Source: Eremomyces bilateralis CBS 781.70 (Eukaryota; Ascomycota; Dothideomycetes; Eremomycetales; Eremomycetaceae). From it: a stretch of DNA of 44,512 bases. A program made the translations under genes and the position numbers. Positions 1 to 22,470 of this stretch are shown here, one piece after another; position 1 is the stretch's first letter, and each line of letters starts with the position of its first letter. The notes beneath the pieces are model-generated. The model was not told where the DNA came from and did no database searches. It saw only the letters and a program-made list of their open reading frames with translations. The stretch is taken from the NCBI RefSeq assembly GCF_010015585.1, contig NW_022985083.1:1-44512 (forward strand), given 5' to 3'.

Positions 1-1791
1 CACTCACACACCACGCTGCATGATAAGGAGGCCCTGTACAGCGAGTTCTCCAAAGTGGATTCCAAGATTCGAATTATGGTCGCAACTGAGTCACTGGGAA
101 CGGGAGTGGACCTCTCGAATGTCATACGTGTCGTCCAATATGGATTCCCCTTGGAGCGGCTTTTAAGCGTTCTCATCCAACGGTTTGGTCGTGCAGCTAG
201 AATGGCCAGCATCAAGGGGGAGGCTGTCTTCCTGGTGGAAAGCTGGGCTGTAGGCGACAGGGTTTCATCAACAAGAGCGGCGTTCTCCAGAAGCCGGAAG
301 CAGTCGTCTTTAAGACAGCTTTCTTATACGAGCCAGCTAGCTCAGTCATGCCCCGTCGAGCCAGAAGCGGAGAGTGATGTTCCAGACCACGAAGCGGATG
401 TTGCTGTAGACGCCATTGACTATGGCGTCCCAGAAGACCAGCGCAAACGCAAAACACAGAGAGAGCGCCGGACAGAGCTGTACAATGACTGCCCAGCACT
501 ATACAATTTTGTCAATCGATCCAATTGCCTACGCCGAATCCTGATGGATTGGCTGCAAGAGAGTTTGTCAGATCCCGCATCTAAGTTGCCTCCTCCTAGA
601 CCGGACGAATGTTGTAACGCCTGCAACCCTGGCCTGACGCGGACGGTGCCTTTCCCGTGGGACATTGCTCCCAGTCTTCGGAAACCCCACGCTGGGACAG
701 CACCAGGTGCATTTTATGACCGCCTAGCCCTCTGGGGAGACAATGTTGTTAACTCGGCGCATCAGACGGCGAAGCCCGAACTTTCCGTGAAGCTATTTAC
801 TCAGAAGAGTGAGTGGATATCATTATCGACAGAATATGCCTACATCCATACAGCCGCTGAGTTGGAGGAGTTTGTGAAATCGACCTGGTTGAAAGACCAT
901 TCCGATGAACTCTTTAAGGAGTTTAATAATATCAAGTCCTACGTCGTGAGGAACTGGCCTGGAGGTAGCAGGCTAGAAACGTCACGGACGTCAGGAGCTG
1001 CAGGCCCAGTGCAGATTTCCCTTGATTATCAAGAAGTCTACAAGGGTCCAGAAGGGAGAGAGACTCACAAGGGGCAATCTTCAGTCGCGATTGAGCATCC
1101 CACTCAGCCAGAGAAACCTGTGTCCTTCTTGCGTAAGAGCGATGATTATATTTCCTCATTGGAGAAACTCATTGCTCGCGCGAGAGAGAATACAGCATTA
1201 TGCTCTCCATGTTCACCTGACCGAGCGTTGTCAGAAAGACAGCCTATGATTATTGCCGAGCAACAGTTTCGACAAAGTTCGTTGCTCGAGAGACAAGGTC
1301 CCCCTGCCACGAAGCAGATGTCCCAACAAGGAGAGCCTCAGGAAAGAAGAGTATCGACCGAAGTAAAGACTCTAATAACTCCCGATCAAGGACGAAGAGC
1401 ATCATTTTTGCGTGACCGAGAAGAGTACGCTTCCTCGCTAGAACGAATCACTGCCAACGCAAGAGAGATATCAGCCTCGTGCTCTCCTTATCTAGCTACC
1501 CAATCAGTGCCGATAGTGGTAGCAGATTCGTCATTAACATCCATTAGGTCGGTTACATCGACAAACGTAGATTGCTCCTCTGGCATATCTAGTGTTTTCG
1601 AAGACAGTGAGAATGGTTTGTCCAGCGTAAGTGGTGGCAATCAGTCGTCGAAACGTCCCGCACCGAGTGAAGGAGAAGGAGAAATGATAAAGCGGGTCGC
1701 TCTCAGCGTTTTAGACTCTAATATAAGGCGAAGTCCTCGCAGTGAAAAAGAGAAGAATAGGCGTTATTACCACGGAGAGCGGATATTATAG
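1..1791 (+). CDS. RecQ-like DNA helicase, C-terminal part (5' end outside window)
   Basis: The frame is open from base 1 to the stop at 1791 (596 residues), so the true start lies upstream. Residues about 34-70 carry the end of a superfamily 2 helicase core: VATESLGTGVDLSNV resembles motif V, and QRFGRAAR is motif VI (Q-x-x-G-R-x-x-R) with its arginine finger. A zinc-binding-like block follows, with NCLRRILMDW and DECCNACNPG, as in RecQ proteins. The last 350 residues are polar and low in complexity, and hold two copies of a motif of the form SFLR-x4-Y-x-SSLE. The family unwinds DNA using ATP; many fungal genomes hold numerous RecQ-like copies in repeats. It runs convergent to the DUF6589 gene with 81 bases between stops. 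The substrate and the start are unknown. Confidence 0.8.
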   Translation, partial: HSHTTLHDKEALYSEFSKVDSKIRIMVATESLGTGVDLSNVIRVVQYGFPLERLLSVLIQRFGRAARMASIKGEAVFLVESWAVGDRVSSTRAAFSRSRKQSSLRQLSYTSQLAQSCPVEPEAESDVPDHEADVAVDAIDYGVPEDQRKRKTQRERRTELYNDCPALYNFVNRSNCLRRILMDWLQESLSDPASKLPPPRPDECCNACNPGLTRTVPFPWDIAPSLRKPHAGTAPGAFYDRLALWGDNVVNSAHQTAKPELSVKLFTQKSEWISLSTEYAYIHTAAELEEFVKSTWLKDHSDELFKEFNNIKSYVVRNWPGGSRLETSRTSGAAGPVQISLDYQEVYKGPEGRETHKGQSSVAIEHPTQPEKPVSFLRKSDDYISSLEKLIARARENTALCSPCSPDRALSERQPMIIAEQQFRQSSLLERQGPPATKQMSQQGEPQERRVSTEVKTLITPDQGRRASFLRDREEYASSLERITANAREISASCSPYLATQSVPIVVADSSLTSIRSVTSTNVDCSSGISSVFEDSENGLSSVSGGNQSSKRPAPSEGEGEMIKRVALSVLDSNIRRSPRSEKEKNRRYYHGERIL

Positions 1792-1872
1792 ATGGACTAC
1801 TCCGACTCGATATCCGAAGGTAAGCCCCATTCGTGGGCTTCATCTCTATCTTCCAAGGGCTGGTGACGTAGG

Positions 1873-4537
1873 TTAGCACAAGACTGAATACTCTACTAGA
1901 ACAAAACATACTAGTATCGCCATCATGTCGTTATCGGGATCCAGATCAGCCGTCGCTCCTCCTGTCTCGTAAGGTGGCACTATTATTTGATCTTCGTCTC
2001 TCATGACCTTGGCGTTAAATATTTCTAGCTTCTTTGTCGCCACCCTTTCGAGCCCGATCGTATGTATGTCCGGCGCTTGATGTCTGGCTTTCCTACCGCC
2101 TCTGTAAAATTTAATCGAATCGCACGCCAATTCAAATGCCAGTATATGAATATCATCCACTGGAGAGGGCACGGAATGCTTGGAGCTTTCCTTCCGCGCA
2201 AATGCTTTCTCTATCGTCTTGCGTAGGAAAACAGTGTATTCTGCTGTTAACGAGGTAGTCTTAAACAGTGCATCTAATCCGAAAGTCGACGTTCGACGGG
2301 CCCAAAGCTCTCTTTTCAGCTCCAGGTTCAGATATTCAAGGCTACGATCGACTTCTTGCCAAGTGTCCCGACAGCCATGTGGATTAACGAGGCTATTCGA
2401 GAGTATTGCGCGCCGAAGCTCCTTATCACAAGCTTTGGTGCTGGTGAGCCGTTTTAGATAGAGCATTTCGAATGCGTAGTTTGATTGTCCAGTCCCCTCG
2501 AAGTAAAAGCAACAGACACCAATGACTCGGTCGATGAGTCCTATATCTCCGTTTTTGATGCCGTACTTCAAGGTCTTGTACACAACCATTTGTTGAAGGT
2601 ATCGAGCATGACTGAGGAACTCCTCATCGACTGTATTGTTGGCATGCTTCTCCTTTGATGGTCGCCAGGCTTCCGGCCCAAATGCGGATCTGCGAACATC
2701 CTCCACTAGGTCCATGAAGCCTCTAGTATTCATGTTCTGAATTGCCTTGTCAACCTCCTCTTGATCGGAGGTATCGATGCCGTACTGCTCGAGGCGAGTA
2801 TAAAGTAGTCCAATAACTCGAGCGTCGAAACTGTGAAGCACCAGCTCTTCTAGAACCTGAAAAGCTGCACGGTCCGCTGGAATATTCTTTCGTCCCCAGA
2901 AGTTGATGTTGTGATAGAGAGTTGAAGCGTCCTGTTGCTCCATGTTTCCGTAATGTGTCTTTTGCATGAGCCATAGAAAATTCATGCGCAGGTGAAAGAG
3001 AGCAGCGACTCCTATCAGCCAGTCTTTTCTATCATACGATATAGACGCGTCGACTTGCTCAGCCTGCATAGATCGGATGAGTGAAGAGGTTTTTTGATCG
3101 CCAAACGCCAAGAACAGACGGTTGTCGAATTCTTTACTATCTAGTTGGAATTGGCGCTTGTAGATGCTCTCTATAACCTCGTAGGAGCCATCTAGAGTAC
3201 CTTCGTTGAAGAGAATCGGACCGAGCGTCTTGCTATCTGTCTTTCGAAGCTCAAGTAACTCGACGGTTGGCATAGCCGGGAATGGGATGTCGGAATTAGA
3301 GAAGATAGATTTGACCGATTTTGGATATGCTGTCCGAATCGCCTCCGCTATGAAGTAGCTGTCAATCTTGGAGGCAGTCTCGTCGTATATGGCGGCGCCG
3401 GGAGAGTAGAAAAGGTCCTCTATTGAAAGTGGAGTCTCACGGTGTAGCATCGATTTCCTTAATCCACCTGGAGGAATGTCGGCGCCTCTGAAAACTTTCC
3501 CCGTTGTTACCGAGCGCATTTCTGCATGGTTTGAAATGAGCTGGTGCTTAACACCTTCTCGATAGTCGAAATTATCGTAGACAACACAGGCGTTCAGCAG
3601 CTGGCCGTATCGACGGACCGTCCCCTACGTACGGTTAGTTGAAATCCATTCCGAGGGACGGTGACGATGCCTTCGCTTGTTCTGCCACGGTTTCAAGATG
3701 TCTGTGGACTGCCTTGTAGCCTTCACAAACCCCAAATTGGTGAAAAAGGTCGAGGACCCGACGTTTCACGCCATTGGAGTGTAGAAAGGCACCAAATACG
3801 CGGGGAAACTTGTTGCTCCCTTCCGACGCCCGAGAATAGCAGAGGATCGACGTGATTATCGCAGTCCTGTGGTTAAATTTAGAAGGATCTCGTGGTGGTC
3901 GATCTTTCCTCTCTATCTTGGGCGCCATAAGACCGTCGAGCAGTCCACATAGAAGAGGAGCATGAGTGTTAACTTGCTCATACATCCAGCCGAACCGCAA
4001 GTCGTCGAGTATGCACTCGTAGTCCTCTGGTTTCTGGCCATCTTCAGACTGGCCATCTTCAGACCGCCCCTCCCGCCCAATACTGGCCTGTAGAGACTTT
4101 TCTCGTTCGCGGTGGACCTGGTAGGCACTAAACATACCTCCGGCTTCTTCCAGCGCTTTCATTTCTTTTCTTAGTGCCTTCACGGTGACAATTCCTCCCA
4201 CACCAGACGCAGGATGTTGTCGTATTGCGTCTAGCACCTCTGGTTGAGTGTATATCGCGTCTACAAGGCGTTTGGCACGCGTCGCAGGTCGATCTCCGTA
4301 GCCGTCACCACCTTGAGTTGTTACATACACTCGGATGAACTCGGCAAGCGTCAAGTGGTGTGTTTGGGACATGTATTTGCATATGTCGTTCACTCGCTTT
4401 TCTGACGTCCATACTCGAGATCTGGCGCGTCTACGATGGACATCGGCAGTCGAAGCAGTAGTTCGTGGCTGTTCTCTGCTCTCTAGAGGCGTTGGGTTCA
4501 GTCGTACGCTGCGCCGAGAGGAGGTTCGATCTGACAT
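1873..4537 (-). CDS. DUF6589-family protein, two exons
   Basis: Two open frames on the minus strand form one gene. Exon 1 starts at ATG 4537 and runs to about 3650. Exon 2 runs from about 3624, after a CTAAC branch-like site and a TAG acceptor at 3625-3627, to the stop at 1873. Exon 2 opens with the family-like stretch VVYDNFDYREG, then MRSVTTGKVF and IPPGGL, and later HLRMNFLWLMQKTHYG. The protein is about 870 residues. I recognise it as DUF6589, a family of unknown function that is multi-copy in fungi and often found near transposons. Exon 1 aligns with the decayed copy at 20.6-21.6 kb (shared APK, SILC, LHS-x-GVKR). The exact donor site is unresolved. No signal peptide or membrane helix is evident. 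Confidence 0.72.
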
Positions 4538-4719: not shown

Positions 4720-4890
4720 CATACCAATTAGGTATAGCGCGGTTCGTTGCCTCAGGCACGACCACAATGGCCTGAGCTTGCTGAGGTAAGCTATTTGTTC
4801 GAGGAGCACATGTGACTTACCGATTAGGTATAGTCCGCTCCGGTGCCTTGGCACGACCACAAATAGCCTGAGCTTGCTGAGGTAAGATCA
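4720..4890. repeat. Imperfect tandem duplication with a TTAGGTATAG motif
   Basis: Two similar units lie side by side. The first (about 4724-4788) and second (about 4821-4885) share ATTAGGTATAG, then GGCACGACCACAA, then GCCTGAGCTTGCTGAGGTAAG. A third relative lies near 34.08 kb, with CCAATTAGGTATAGC followed by a GCCT-x-AGGCAC block. The units sit between the DUF6589 start and the left hAT end. They may belong to the edge of an unidentified repeat family. Confidence 0.6.
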
Positions 4891-4943
4891 AGGCGATCAA
4901 CCGCAAGCCTGGCTTAGTAGTACAGAGCTTCCATCGATAATTT

Positions 4944-5010
4944 TTATCGGGTAATCTGATACGATAATCGGTATCGCCGATACCGATTATCCTGTAATAT
5001 TACCCGATAA
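4944..5010. repeat. Nested perfect inverted repeats in the hAT left subterminal region
   Basis: The inner arms 4963-4976 and 4978-4991 (GATAATCGGTATCG and its complement) match over 14 bases with a one-base loop. The outer arms 4944-4955 and 4999-5010 (TTATCGGGTAAT and its complement) match over 12 bases. Together they could fold into a hairpin of about 67 bases. Related GATACCCGATAATCG motifs occur near 7458-7475, so these are probably transposase-binding subterminal repeats. Confidence 0.75.
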
Positions 5011-5097
5011 TTCCTTAGCGCCCTGCCGCCCACCAAATGCTTCAAGTGATAGAAATCATAGAATATTATTTACGTCTCAATCACCACGTACAGCATA

Positions 5098-7254
5098 ATG
5101 AGCTCTATATTCGATTTATCTAGTGTTTCAAATTCTCTTGAGTCTGAAAATTCAACCATTACCACCAATTCGCGCAAGAAATCCTCTCCGATCCATAAGC
5201 ATACTCGAGAGCCAAAAGACGGTGAACCAGCGTACGACAAGAACGGACATCTCCTATATTATTGCAACTACTGCACTACTACAGCGAAGAGTTCAACAGC
5301 TGGGCTTCGGCTACATCTTCAAAAAGAGCATGATATCGAGTCTCCTACGGGTATACGTCGTGCGGCAAAAATCGCTGGAGAGGAGGCAGTTGTTGAGCTA
5401 TACCAAGCTATTCTAGCAAAGGGAGGGGGCACTACGGAGATCGATACAGAGGTTCTAGAACAGGTTATCAATCAGGAAGTTCTAAAGAAAGCTATTCTGG
5501 ACTTAGTGATCGTACGACGGCTCCCCTTCTCGATTGTTCAATGGCCCGAATTCCATGCTTTCTGCTCCGCACTCAACCGGGAATCAAATACCTTTATTCC
5601 TACGTCCCCCTCTACTGTCTCAAAATGGATCACGGATTCCTTTCCGGAGGCACAAGATATCGTACGAAAAGTACTTCAATCTGCCAAAACAAAGATCCAC
5701 CTTGCTGTCGATGTCTGGACCTCTCCGAATCGACATCTTTTGCTTGCAATCTGCGCTAGCTTTGTGGACGACCAGGACCATCTCAAGAATACTTTGATTG
5801 CTCTTCGTACGATACATGACCACAGCGGCAAGGGACAGTTTGACGTCTTACTTCCTGTACTAGACGACTATGGAATTACCCAGAGTGTCGGTGCTCTTGT
5901 TGGCGACAATGCAACAACAAACGATACTCTTTGTCACGAGATAAGCCAGCATCTTTCTCTCGAGTATAAGATTTCGTGGAGTGCCACACAACAACGGATT
6001 CGCTGCCAGGGCCACATTCTCAATCTCGTCGTCCAAGCGTTTCTTTTTTCAAAAGAAGACGACGAGGATATCATGAAATCGTACGATAAAGAAGATGAAG
6101 AAGGGGAAGAATTAGGAGAGAAGGAGAAGAAGGATCGAGCGAATAATATTCGGAACAGAATGGGAGTAATGGGAAAACTCCATAATATTGTCGTACACAG
6201 CCGAGAATCAGGAGGTCGGATGAAAGAGCTTGTTAGGCTTATTGGGAGATCAATTCCTCTTGATAATCGTACGAGATGGAATAGCTGGTTTCGGATGTTC
6301 GAGGTGGCGCTTTCCGATTCTGTACGACCAGGACTTCAAAAGTATATGGAAATGTACCATGAACAGGGCTCAATTGACAAAAAGGATCTAATCAGTACTG
6401 AAGGTTGGATACAACTCCGTACGATTTGCTCATTTCTTGAAGTTTTCGATGGGGCAACTCTTTTCTTACAAGGAGACGAAGTCACGCTTGAACGGGTTCT
6501 GGAAAGTATGGACATTCTTGAAGGTTTCTTTGAAAAGACTCTGGTAAGTCGTACGATCCAAAGAAGTATTCTTTTATTAATTCTTTAGGACGAGATGAAG
6601 CAGGATAAAGCTTTGAAGCAAATTTTTACTCGAGTTCAATCTTCCTTTACAAAGTTTAAGGACTATTCCGCGAAGCTAGGGGGATCTCCATACTATGCCG
6701 CAGCGCGAATTCTCCACCCAGAGAGGCGTACGACATGGTTACAAGATAAGAACGGAGAGATTTCAACGGCGTCGCAGCAAACCCTATGGAAAGTGAAGCA
6801 ACTCTGGGGGAAATGGCGCAAAGAAATACTACCTTCAGTTGTTGCAGCAAGGTCATCCGATAAAGAAAGAGCTGGACAGTCAATTACTCAGCCGGACGAC
6901 AGAAAGCTCGATTCGTTTCAGAAGCTTCGCCGCGATTACCAGGACAGACAGCTTCGCCCACAGAGCCAGGATGAGCTTGAGAATTTCCTTGCGGAAACAC
7001 CGTCGTACGGTATCTCTAGACCATCAATCAAGTGGTGGACAGACGAAGTTCAACAACAGAGATGGCCACGGCTCTCACTCTTTGCTATTGAAATCCTTTC
7101 AATACCAGCGATGAGCGATAAGCCAGAGAGAATCTTCTCAGGCGGACGACGTAGAGTAGGATGGGAGCGCGCATCAACGAGTCCAGGGATGATTGAGAAG
7201 ACGGAGTGTATGAAGGATTGGAAGAGCCAGGGCATTTTAAAGGTAAAATTCTAG
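5098..7254 (+). CDS. hAT transposase with BED-type zinc finger
   Basis: Exons are 5098-6543 and 6589-7254. The 45-base intron (GTAAGT...TTTAG) holds the stop that would otherwise end the first frame, and the join is in phase, giving 703 residues. A BED-like finger lies at residues 56-78 (C56, C59, H73, H78). Acidic residues expected in the catalytic core include D205 (AVDVW) and D270 (VGDNATTND), followed by an RWNSW block. An acidic, lysine-rich stretch lies near residues 325-350. The C-terminus carries the hAT dimerisation signature: IEILSIPAMSDKPERIFS, then C and W residues. It would cut and join the element ends. The coding region is unusually rich in the palindrome CGTACG. Confidence 0.9.
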
Positions 7255-7500
7255 AAGAACAGATTTCCTTATCGTACGATAGTGTTTATTTAACTTAGAC
7301 TAGCATAAAGAAGAGAAGGTTTAATTCGATTATTTTCTATTTTCTATTCATAATTATAAATATCACGACGATTGTGAGGGCTGGGGTTTAAAATAACGAT
7401 ACATGCGTAAACTATCGGGTATTATTAGATAATCGGTGTCAGGAAGCCCCGATACCCGATAATCGTATCAAACCTATCAGAGCTATCGGTGGAAGCACTG

Positions 7501-8285
7501 CAAGTTAGTAGTTAGTACTTTAACTTAGATCTAAAACGGATGGGGAATTAATCGCACACTGAAGCCTTATGAACATCGTATCTAAATAATACTGGGAAGC
7601 TTATTCTGTATGGGTATGTATAGGCAGCCTAGGATTAATGAATCCCTTCGCATTTGAACTCCCATCAATACATCAGCCACCTTCAGTCAATTCTGATATT
7701 ATATGAATAACATTGAGTGCTACTGAACTTGCCCCCAAAAAACGGCAGTATTTTAATGCCGTATTTGAAGGGGTTTTGGCTTGGTGGAAACTCGCTCGTT
7801 TCATTGCCGTCGTTGCCGGCATTGCCCAAAAGCATTTTCTTAGGAGACGTTTGCGATTTGGTGGATCTATGGACTCGCGGAAAGTGGGTCTATAGTTAGT
7901 AGTTTGACGTTAAATGATGGTGTTGCTAAATCCCTGGGATATAGGGCTATAAACAGACTAACCCCATATCTATGGATATGAGGAAAATAAAGCATTCGGC
8001 ATTCCAGCGCCAGTCATCCTCTCATGATGTAAACCCTTCGCCTTCGTAGTCGATAGCAACCCTCTGTCTATAGGATTCTGGGTAACGGGCTATAGGGAAT
8101 CGATGCAAGGGCTGAAGTCTCATATAGACGGACCCGAATTACGTCTCGGGTGGATAAGCGAGTGCAAATAAGCCCTTTTCGTACTAGGTCACGTTTCCGG
8201 GGTATCGAGGGGCTTCTGAGCATAAATGATATGACTAGAGTGCGGTCAGTAACGGCCAAAACCGCCGGACGAACGGTGAGACTGA
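7501..8285. other. Intergenic stretch with no supported gene
   Basis: This lies between the right hAT end and the 3' end of the methyltransferase gene. Short frames near 7713-7899 show no family features. It begins with the candidate target-site repeat of the hAT element and otherwise appears unstructured. Confidence 0.5.
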
Positions 8286-18149: not shown

Positions 18150-19041
18150 GACAGTGCTTCTTAATAGTCAACTAATATTCTCAAGCTCGTGAACATGGAC
18201 GCCCCGATACTCCAAATGAACAAGCATAGACTTAGCTGTCAACGAGAACGATATTGGAATTGGAACGAACAAAAGATGGTTCCGAAAAAACTTTAGTATG
18301 GTATTTCTCTCAATGCGATAGGATATGTGAAACCGGGATGAAAAGCTAACTTCGAAGCGAACATAGTTTATGTGTAATGGGCGGTGTTCACCCCGTCAAG
18401 GTTTCACAATGCAATACTGGGACAGCGTACTATACTCGCTCTTCTTTCGGGTCTGAATATAGGAGCGACAATTCGAAAAACTGAATGAAACATCTCACCT
18501 GTTGGAGCATGTTCTCTCAAATCAAGATATCGGTTCATTGCCAGTCAACATGAATTTCGTCTCACACAAGGCTGAATCATGCGATCGTCTCCATGATACT
18601 TAGTGGGCTGAAGAAGCGTTGAAAGGCATTGCGCAGAAAATGAAGCAGGAATGCTGATAGCAATTCAAACTTTTGCGAACAACTCATGCGATGTCGTCTG
18701 ATTTAAAGCGGTGCTAGTAGGCAAACATGGTAAGCGGACCATTATTGTTTGCCTCTTTTCCAGCCCAATTACTACGGACTACTTGAGAGCCCCGACACTA
18801 GTGCTGTGGGACGCTTGAGCCTCAAGTAGTGTGGTCGATAATAGCTGCCAATGTGCCATAACTCGGGTTAGCAATTTTGGTCCTCACATTATTGGCAGGT
18901 TGCAAGTGCGCTACCAGTTCTTACGCAAATTAGATGAAGAAATTAATATCTTATCTTTATTTTATAGGCTGGTGAGATTTTCCCACCAGGTTTTGAGATT
19001 TGGCAGCTGAGATTTGTCCCCCCTTTATTTGTCCCCTGCGC
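18150..19041. other. Intergenic region with a 10-base inverted repeat
   Basis: No gene is supported. ACTACTTGAG at 18778-18787 pairs with CTCAAGTAGT at 18821-18830 around a 33-base loop. The stretch ends at the TA target site of the pogo-type element. Confidence 0.45.
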
Positions 19042-19043
19042 TA

Positions 19044-20551
19044 ACGTATTCCACAAGCGAGCCGCCACCTCAACCAGAAAACGCGACACTCGGTCTACAA
19101 ACAACAATGTCTCAATCAATTGATGCTCAATCTATTCAAAAAGAGGGTCGTTTATCTTTAGCTATACACGCTACCGATCAAGGCCAAATTCAGAACAATC
19201 TACAAGCTGCAGCTATATTCAACGTCCCTAGAACAACTCTTAGAGATCGACGCGCTGGAATCCTTTCACGACGCGACTGTACGCCCAATTCAAGAAAACT
19301 TACGGATCTAGAGGAGAGTGTTATTATTCGACATATCTTGGACCTAGATTCGCGAGGATTTGGGCCCCGGTTGGGTGGTGTTGAAGATATGGCCAATAAG
19401 CTACTTGCTGCTCGGGATAGCGGACGCGTCGGCGTCAATTGGGCCTCAAACTTTGTTAAGAGGACACCTGGGCTCAAAATGCGCTTCAATCGACGGTTAG
19501 ACTACCAGAGGGCCCAGAATGAGGACCCAGAGATTATGAAGGGCTGGTTTGAGCTCGTACGCAATACTATCGCCAAGTACAGCATCCATGAGGACGATAT
19601 CTATAACATGGCGTCTCTTAATCATTGATGGGCATGAGAGCCATAACTCGCTTCAATTCCAGGAATTCTGTAAAGAGAAGAACATTATTACACTTTGTAT
19701 GCCTCCGCACGCGTCCCACATTCTCCAGCCGCTTGATGTGGGTTGTTTTGGGCCACTGAAGAAGGCGTACGGGTATCAGATCGAGGGCTTGATACGGAAC
19801 TCTATCAACCATATCACCAAACTCGAGTTCCTACCAGCATTCAAAGCCGCACACGAAGCCGCTCTTACGAAGAAAAATATCCGTGGGGCCTTCCGAGGCT
19901 CAGGGCTAGTTCCGTACGATCCAGAAGCAGTGATTTCGAAGCTCGACGTCAGACCAAGGACTCCGACTCCAGCCGCTGAGGATGCTCAATGGGAGACGAA
20001 AACACCAAGCAACGCTATTGAATTGACGGCTCAATCGAAGCTAATTCAAGGCCGTATTACGAACCATCAAAATAGCTCGCCTACGCCAATCAATGAGGCG
20101 CTTGATCAGTTCGTCAAGGGCGCCCAGGCAATGGTCCATTCGCTCACGATTCTGAAGGGCGAAAACGAGACTCTTCGAAAGGCAAACAAGCTCGCAACGC
20201 AACGAAGACAACGAAAAAAAAGCGGATTCAGGAGCGAGGGTCTTTGACTATTGGGGAGGGGGAGGATTTAATTAATCATTCCGCCATTGAGTCCCAAATT
20301 TCTCAAGAAATACGTCAAAGTCGTACCCTACAGGATGGGGCTACGCCGCGTCGAAGGCGATGTGGACGCTGTCGTGAGGTAGGACATCGTATTGAAACAT
20401 GTCCTCTAGGTCGGCAAGATACTGTAGAATAGACTGGATATTATAAATAATTGATTTTATTTGGCGTTGTAGAGAAATCTGTACTTGAAGTGGTTTGGTA
20501 TAGGTTGAGGTGGCGGCTCGCTTGTAATGGCGGCTCGCTTGTGGAATACGT
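19044..20551 (+). mobile_element. Pogo/Fot-type DNA transposon, internally deleted
   Basis: The ends carry ACGTATTCCACAAGCGAG (19044 inward, continuing CCGCC) and its complement ending at 20550/20551. TA lies directly outside the left end (19042-19043); on the right, TA overlaps the last TIR base (20551-20552). Within the right end GGCGGCTCGCTTGT is present twice (about 20511-20524 and 20530-20543). The body encodes a CENP-B/pogo-type transposase lacking most of its catalytic domain. At about 1.5 kb it is shorter than complete members, which fits internal deletion. The same 18-base terminus bounds the MITE at 43.6 kb. Confidence 0.85.
19107..20432 (+). pseudogene. Pogo-type transposase relic (HTH, part of DDE domain, zinc knuckle)
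   Basis: The N-terminal half reads as a psq/CENP-B-type helix-turn-helix protein: AIFNVPRTTLRDRRAG, then a CENP-B-like segment with GVNWASNFVKRTPGL. It reaches KYSIHEDDIYNM, which in the family leads to the first catalytic aspartate. There the sequence jumps straight to RLLIIDGHESH, which holds the second catalytic aspartate, so roughly 100 codons of the core are missing and the frame changes. The rest (CMPPHASHILQPLDVGCFGPLKKAYG) is typical. A second frame change falls at an eight-A run (20214-20221), before a CCHC-like knuckle (CGRCREVGHRIETCP). It cannot make active transposase, although its ends could still be mobilised in trans. Confidence 0.85.
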
Positions 20552-20574: not shown

Positions 20575-21595
20575 ACCTACCTGATTTTGGACATGGCCAT
20601 TTTGATTCCCGGGGGCTAGGAAGACATCGCTGGCGGATATTGTCGCTTGGGGATTAAGCATATCCTGCTGCAATCCGTCGGGTGGCATCTCAATGCCTTG
20701 AATGGCCTGGCCTGTTGTCACCGAATGGAAAGTATTTTGATGATCGACTCGCTGCTCTTTAATGCCCTCTGAAAAACTCGAAATTGTCGTATGCAGTTAC
20801 GGATGCGCCGCTCTATCCCATGCATTTCACCTGCGCCGCGGAACGGTCTGGCTGTTCTTTGATGACTTTGATGATGGTACCGTAACTGGTGATGAAGCCT
20901 AGACGACTGAGGAGTTCAATTTGCTCGCGTTTAACACCTTTGGAATGAAGGTAGATGCCGAGAGTCGTCTGGAAACCTGTATGACTGTTTTTCCGCTGGG
21001 AAAAACAGAGAATTGACATGATTGCTACGATTCGAGAAACCGGCTCTTTTTGGGCCGTATAATATTGCTGAGCTTTAGGTGCCATGATGTCCCTAATAAG
21101 CTGCAGCAACAAAGGCGCCTCTTCCTGTATTGTGTGCAGGATTTTATCCATACCCAGTGCGTCAAACCCACCACTCTTGGAAGCCGGATCGTATTTGTTA
21201 AATAGGGCCAGATCTCCTAGCCTTTCTACCTCTCTTCGTAACTCATTGTTGCCCAGATCCAAGATCTCAATAATAGACTGCCTGCCACCATCCCACTGTT
21301 GATCTACATCGCCAAAGTAGGACTTCAGAACTTCCGGATCTTTATATGCAGCTGCAGCAAAGGCAGCCTTCCGGCGAGTATTGTTAGAACCATCGGAGAA
21401 AGCTAACGTCTTGACGAAGTCGGAAACTCCCCAGCGGAATTCGTTGCGCATGAAATTGCACACCATATTAAGTTTTTCGACATCGGAGCGGGGCGATCGT
21501 CGACGGCCGCTGCGGCCAGGTGGCGGTAACAATGAAGATGGAGCAGATACGTTATCTTCTGCTACAGTCGAAGGAGATGAACCTTTGGAAACCAT
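20575..21595 (-). pseudogene. Decayed, truncated second DUF6589 copy
   Basis: The minus frame starting at ATG 21595 encodes 260 residues. It aligns with exon 1 of the DUF6589 gene at 4.5 kb, with shared APK, I-x-SILC-x-S, LHSKGVKR and an LSRLGF/FHQFG block. Beyond 20813, pieces equivalent to exon 2 follow in shifted frames: AYDNFEF, then HSVTTGQ, IEMPPDGL and SASDVFLAPG, ending near 20581. Similarity stops about 30 bases from the pogo terminus, and the remaining 480 or so residues are not found on the other side of that element. It appears to be a truncated relic with several disruptions. Confidence 0.75.
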
Positions 21596-22470
21596 ATTCA
21601 GAGATCAGCTGTCCGAGAGTTCTACGTCAGTTTAGCAAGCATATACGAATCAATAGGCAGAAGGAACTCACTCTCTTCCGTCCTTAAGGTTCGCTGTTAG
21701 TTATTAAATTATTCTTGCATCTTCAATATCAATGCTGTAACTTACTACTATTACTCAGGATTCTTTATGACTACTTAGCCACCTCGCCTTATGAGATCGG
21801 GGATTTAGGAATATGTTTGGTTGTCGACTTGGACGCGCTGTTTGGCTTCGTGTTTTGATGTCGATTTCGAGACGAGTTCGGAGATGAGCTTGGAGGGGCA
21901 ATTTGCATGCCACGAACGTCAACGCCGCCAAAAGTTTTCAAATTTGGCCCAGGCCCTTCGTGTGGGTGACCCATTTTGGGTTAGCGCCTTGGCGTCCTAC
22001 CGAAGGGCCTGAGAGCCTGAGGTAACGTTTTTCGGCTGGATACTCTGATGCCTTAACGCCTCAACGCCTCACCAGCACTGCACGCTGCTGCTGTGCTGCA
22101 CGTGGAGGCGTCACACATGCAGACACGGACCGGGGCCGGGCAAACCTCCCGCAAATCCCCGCTCCGTTCTCCGGACATTCCCCCCGATGATCAATGGGGT
22201 ATGAAGTCTGGATTTCCAACCCATCTGGACCTGATCATCCATTTTCCTCTTCCTTCATTCCCCGGTCCCATTTGATTTCTATTCTTTCCAGCCTCGGACC
22301 CTCGGTACCTTCACGTTTCCATCTGAAAACTTGTCAGAGTCCTTCCTGTATTCGTATCACCATGAAGTTCCGTTGATCTGGTAAGCTCGCGATTGCGGGG
22401 ACCCCGAGCGTTCGGATTCGACTGGACGGCTTTCGTGGACTTAAGATTTCGATATAGACGGATTACAACC
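21596..22470. other. Intergenic region between DUF6589 relic and adenylate kinase
   Basis: No gene is supported. The part near 22261-22440 is C- and T-rich, as in fungal promoters and leaders, and would hold the promoter and 5' leader of the adenylate kinase gene. GCCT/AGGC-rich short repeats occur near 21985-22080. Confidence 0.45.

Follow-up and report, generated by a model that had tools for sequence, protein, structure and literature searches.

Convergent RecQ-family helicase and DUF6589 genes as the very probable coding content of a terminal-inverted-repeat DNA transposon family in Eremomyces bilateralis

The window analysed here, that is, the whole stretch of 44,512 nucleotides from position 1 of contig NW_022985083.1 of Eremomyces bilateralis CBS 781.70 (assembly GCF_010015585.1), opens with two genes facing each other. 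On the forward strand, positions 1..1791 hold the C-terminal 596 codons and the stop of a RecQ-family helicase, an open frame (1-1788) whose 5' side is truncated by the contig start, which contains a Helicase_C domain (E 2.3e-10) and is 99.8% identical to the full frame found on contig C35. This full-length relative has 946 codons with DEAD and Helicase_C domains, and finds its best solved-structure matches in RECQ1 and WRN (~1e-16); its score with the RecQ family model, 118.7 bits, is under the model cut-off of 219.8. On the reverse strand lies a gene whose main exon, at 1873..3624 (open frame at 1876-3624), matches DUF6589 (PF20231, E 9.5e-68) and encodes a probable transposase with residues D17, D176 and E386 invariant in the alignment; an upstream exon with the start codon occupies 3638..4537 and is an open frame having homologous frames in other lineages of the pair. 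The convergent arrangement pointed out in an earlier note on this DNA is borne out by the frames and domain matches, the two stop codons ending at 1791 and 1873 with 81 bases between them.

Beyond the DUF6589 gene two element ends are nested. The inner terminus, TTACCTCAGCAAGCTCAG, is recognised by the terminal pattern at 4772..4789 (reverse strand) and is followed at 4790..4797 by GCTATTTG, one copy of the 8-bp duplication of the inner element, identified by a junction that is the same as that of contig C20 and by comparison of a filled with an empty site (see below). By their shared boundaries, the 96 bp at 4790..4885 (reverse strand) belong to another element of this type, the outer one, and form its end, with the terminus at 4885. 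The flank of this outer terminus, GATCAAGG at 4886..4893, is the presumed outer duplication copy, for which a search for a partner end gave 0 matches. The window copy thus starts beyond the contig start and has the nested junction on its other side. Immediately beyond the outer terminus the window contains a hAT transposon (4922-7504, Dimer_Tnp_hAT) flanked on both sides by TTAGTAGT (4914-4921 and 7505-7512), its frame being broken near 6588.

The presence elsewhere in the window of a decayed DUF6589 copy lacking a helicase, which had also been remarked upon, was confirmed by tblastn: the copy lies at 20608..21478 on the reverse strand (start of the C exon at 20608-20775, N part at 20816-21478), and no helicase match was found beside it by the same method. 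A terminus, TTACCTCAGGCTCTCAGG, matches the terminal pattern at 22008..22025 (reverse strand) on the DUF6589 side of this second element, whose other end was not found within the window. Tc5/pogo-like frames (19011-20247; HTH_Tnp_Tc5 weak, DDE_1 9.8e-19) adjoin the decayed copy.

Throughout the 26.6 Mb genome a profile search yielded 18 PF20231 matches, and the helicase fragment of the window gave 21 match rows at 16 loci. At 14 of these 16 loci a convergent PF20231 match is present; of the remaining two, C50 has a DNA match to the beginning of the gene and then runs out of contig, and C6 consists of N at the corresponding place. Wherever both families were matched, 14 loci in total, the genes converge. 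Since in two cases (C44/C35 and C20/C50) the halves of a single insertion count as separate loci, the distinct helicase loci number at most 14. Conversely, four of the 18 PF20231 matches (C12, C3, C24 and C5) have no helicase match in this search or in the next one, three of them being fragments. A search with the helicase of one divergent lineage (lineage C, defined below) returned 46 match rows, including fragments without a PF20231 match, and many helicase fragments of this sort sit in internally deleted copies bounded by element ends of the A/B or C type (see below). The pairing of helicase and DUF6589 is far from chance. One row of the lineage C search, with 23% identity (C15:595737-596183), falls in a frame of 592 codons that is not near any of the termini found and is possibly the host's own RecQ.

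The pairs were sorted into four lineages: A (the window copy, C20, C35, C44 and C50), B (C28, C37, the end of C29, the end of C7 and, more distantly, C26:193172), C (the start of C29, the start of C7, C26:172418 and C6) and C1 (two copies on the contig of this name). Protein identity between lineages A and C is 32% for DUF6589 and 28% for the helicase, and the convergent gene order, being kept at such a distance, must be old. The A copies compared with the window copy, and the B copies among themselves, are 99.8-99.98% identical, which indicates that the element has been mobile recently.

DNA identity between copies breaks off at sharp points, beyond which the flanks are unrelated, and both ends of the element open with inverted copies of a motif holding two CTCAG-like words, namely TTACCTCAGCAAGCTCAG in lineages A and B, TTATCTCAGYTKGGRCTCAG in lineage C and TAGYCTYAGATACCYCAG in lineage C1. 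The A/B-type terminus has 80 hits in the genome at up to two mismatches versus 0 in the control, the C-type terminus 47 at up to one mismatch versus 1, and the C1-type terminus 6 at up to two mismatches versus 2. The copy at C26:193172-199187 has perfect terminal inverted repeats (TIRs) of 25 bp, as is characteristic of class II transposons. The complete element measures ~6.0-6.7 kb, and an exact 8-bp duplication flanks C26:193172-199187 (6016 bp), C26:172418-179075 (6658 bp) and C6:1165607-1171995 (6389 bp, with a stretch of N). A further 28 of the 33 end pairs considered delimit shorter copies, from 130 to 3277 bp, many of which have the same ends and neither gene intact; five copies of ~2 kb (C3, C4, C15, C27 and C50, the last split by an insertion) retain fragments related to both genes.

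These 33 end pairs are facing pairs chosen from the hits of the terminal patterns, the other hits being unpaired, at contig ends or unread; of the 39 pairings listed, copies with nested termini are represented by their outer pair, which leaves six alternative pairings, none matching at 8 of 8, outside the 33. An exact 8-bp target-site duplication was found at 22 of the 33 pairs and a match at 7 of 8 positions at three more, whereas 1056 mismatched flank pairings used as a control gave no exact match and a single one at 7 of 8 or better. Eight pairs have no 8-bp duplication; in one of these (C5) the flanks agree over 9 bp, and in no case do they agree over the whole of 6, 7 or 10. In the C1 lineage one copy agrees at 7 of 8 positions, its counterpart at 3. 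The duplication characteristic of TIR transposons is therefore present at a fixed length, and the duplicated words have no strong consensus. Four short copies (C3:1252090-1252872, C14:369577-370359, C22:162936-163718 and C40:12459-13826) have two nested termini ~92 bases apart at one end and, like the window copy, a duplication belonging to the outer terminus. Two other copies, C5:1113972 and C8:974267, have an identical 15-base left flank, the right flank of the latter being its reverse complement, and are perhaps insertions into another inverted repeat.

Duplications of 8 bp are also made by hAT transposons; however, a domain search detected no hAT dimerisation domain in either protein (DUF6589 is the one domain of the DUF6589 protein) and the termini differ, so that hAT was dropped as a candidate for want of its domain.

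Many copies lie at contig ends, and an amplification of subtelomeric RecQ genes by recombination between chromosome ends was at first the favoured explanation; RecQ genes at chromosome ends, known as telomere-linked helicases, do occur as multi-copy families in fungi, according to PMC4522978. When the 8-bp flanks of 40 element ends were compared (a comparison made without shuffled control, for which arithmetic predicts ~0.01 chance matches), ten pairs emerged. Two of them (C26 and C6) were already among the 33 and one, C17-C50, repeats a flank common to C17, the contig of the window, and C20, while seven are further end pairs with a common 8-bp flank across or near contig ends: C44/C35, C37/C35, C29/C37, C7/C11, C3/C38 and, twice, C20/C50. 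Insofar as contig ends pair by 8-bp duplications, the breaks of the assembly fall inside the repeat. Furthermore, copies lie deep within contigs C1 and C26, duplications are found at internal sites, and (TTAGGG)3, the one telomere repeat unit searched for, is absent from the assembly. Unlike the telomere-linked helicases, the element described here has TIRs, target-site duplications and a DUF6589 partner. The subtelomeric explanation was dropped upon the pairing of the flanks and the internal copies, and its probability is now close to nil. The transposon is itself a cause of breaks in this assembly, and the shared flanks tell which contigs adjoin (C44/C35, C37/C35, C29/C37, C7/C11, C3/C38 and C50/C20).

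The C20/C50 junction also provides an empty site. Here an A element has landed within another transposon of this type: CAAATAGC occurs once and unbroken in the uninterrupted elements at C28, C37, C29, C7 and C26, and is split at C20 and C50, where it is found on both sides of the insertion. A plain segmental duplication was rejected on the grounds of this empty site and of the 8-bp duplications. With C20/C50 the window copy shares both the inner junction (terminus 4789) and the 96-bp outer end (terminus 4885), but its outer flank differs; either the two nested elements moved together, or one site received two independent insertions.

Taken together, the neighbouring genes at 14 of 16 helicase loci, common ends, differing flanks, 8-bp duplications and a filled and an empty site uphold the premise of the earlier note that the two genes form a mobile unit; adjacency at no more than chance frequency and a lack of shared boundaries, the outcomes named there as adverse, are not what is seen inside this genome. 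We conclude that the two genes very probably make up the coding part of TIR DNA transposons that form one family and measure ~6.0-6.7 kb when complete, DUF6589 being most likely the transposase, putatively of the DDE type, and RecQ an accessory protein.

In the complete copy at C26:193172-199187 only ~245 and 446 bases lie outside the open frames of the two genes, which leaves no space for another transposase. Compared with this copy, lineage A yields dN/dS ratios of 0.137 over 573 codons of the DUF6589 C exon, 0.259 over 279 codons of the N exon and 0.157 over 600 helicase codons, and lineage B yields 0.149 over 569 codons of the DUF6589 C exon. Within lineage C the values are 0.189 over 611 codons of the DUF6589 C exon, where differences are very few, and 0.403 over 690 helicase codons. 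Between lineages, both genes are thus under purifying selection (dN/dS 0.14-0.26). Synonymous divergence between the window exons and C26:193172-199187 is uneven along the element (0.41 for the DUF6589 C exon, 0.77 for the N exon and 0.85 for the helicase), as if lineages had swapped pieces.

The alternative in which the two genes are passengers, moved by a transposase encoded elsewhere in the genome, would account for the copies that have the same ends and duplications without both genes intact, a situation equally expected of the non-autonomous copies of any transposon. Against it, four lineages with differing ends retain the same two genes, both under purifying selection, and the complete element has no other coding space; this alternative is accordingly considered improbable. 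The lack of coding space for another enzyme and the purifying selection make DUF6589 most likely the transposase of the element, and DUF6589 probably fulfils this role. Its invariant residues D17 (VYDNF), D176 (FGDQKT) and E386 (YxxEM), chosen by eye in an alignment of five sequences, would suit a candidate DDE triad with a long insertion. A single-sequence model of the window DUF6589 protein reached a mean pLDDT of 35.4, and the DUF6589 profile found 0 matches in the PDB, neither showing an RNase H fold. Relatives were also sought in viral contigs (3, 5 and 127 pattern matches, 0 relatives by tblastn), in prokaryote contigs (62 pattern matches, 0 relatives) and in plasmids and phages (no match). 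As to the mechanism, the DUF6589 protein would recognise the CTCAG words at the ends and join the ends of the element to the target at positions staggered by 8 bp; the helicase, judging from its family, may unwind or process DNA during transposition or the subsequent repair.

A RecQ helicase beside a transposase is also described for KolobokH, so far found only in fungi, in PMC9587614, where RecQ lies downstream of the transposase and a C/DxxH motif stands between the second D and the last E. In the element described here the genes are instead convergent and, if D176 and E386 are taken as catalytic, C/DxxH is absent at the invariant H211, three residues before which two alignments (A1 and A2) have A or G. 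The duplications of Kolobok are TTAA, as opposed to 8 bp without consensus. KolobokH was dropped on the duplications and the motif, and that the element belongs to it is very improbable.

The classification that must be weighed most seriously is that of a lineage of AcademH, reportedly defined by Kojima in 2020 (Mob DNA 11:15), in which case DUF6589 would be the Academ transposase and RecQ the AcademH helicase; the mechanism would be the same and the difference one of classification only. According to papers that cite this work, AcademH carries a helicase and occurs in animals and fungi (PMC10045372, PMC10799480), at low copy number in Basidiomycota, Ascomycota and Mucoromycota (PMC10799480), a RecQ helicase is mentioned in Academ (PMC3627910), and the Academ elements of bivalves are described with a mean length of 5565 bp, near the 6.0-6.7 kb seen here. 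Like AcademH, then, the present DNA transposon combines TIRs with a helicase gene, here of the RecQ family, and resides in an ascomycete. In contrast, duplications of 9 or 10 bp are described for AcademH in PMC10045372, as opposed to 22 of 33 at exactly 8 bp, one at 9 and none at 10. Since, according to the same source, the length of the duplication varies among Academ lineages, AcademH stays the main alternative classification, and the chances for and against it appear evenly balanced. The element is a RecQ-carrying TIR DNA transposon and not a proven member of AcademH.

It follows that the adjective "undescribed", applied to the unit in the earlier note, stands in part: helicase-bearing TIR transposons such as AcademH and KolobokH have been published, whereas no mention of DUF6589 by name was found in the main texts of the literature searched. 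In the same literature PF20231 retrieved only an unrelated nanophotonics match, IPR046496 nothing, and RecQ in combination with an 8-bp target-site duplication no match. With the 8-bp duplications, the double-CTCAG ends and the tail-to-tail RecQ partner, it is conceivable, and we propose it tentatively as the less probable outcome, that DUF6589 represents the catalytic domain in a separate superfamily of transposases. If this were true, a Pfam family of unknown function would be a transposase family, and many of its genomic copies would be transposons; a role as transposase would in itself give this family a function. Finally, recently moved RecQ-carrying copies with exact ends offer a way to test why some transposons carry RecQ helicases.
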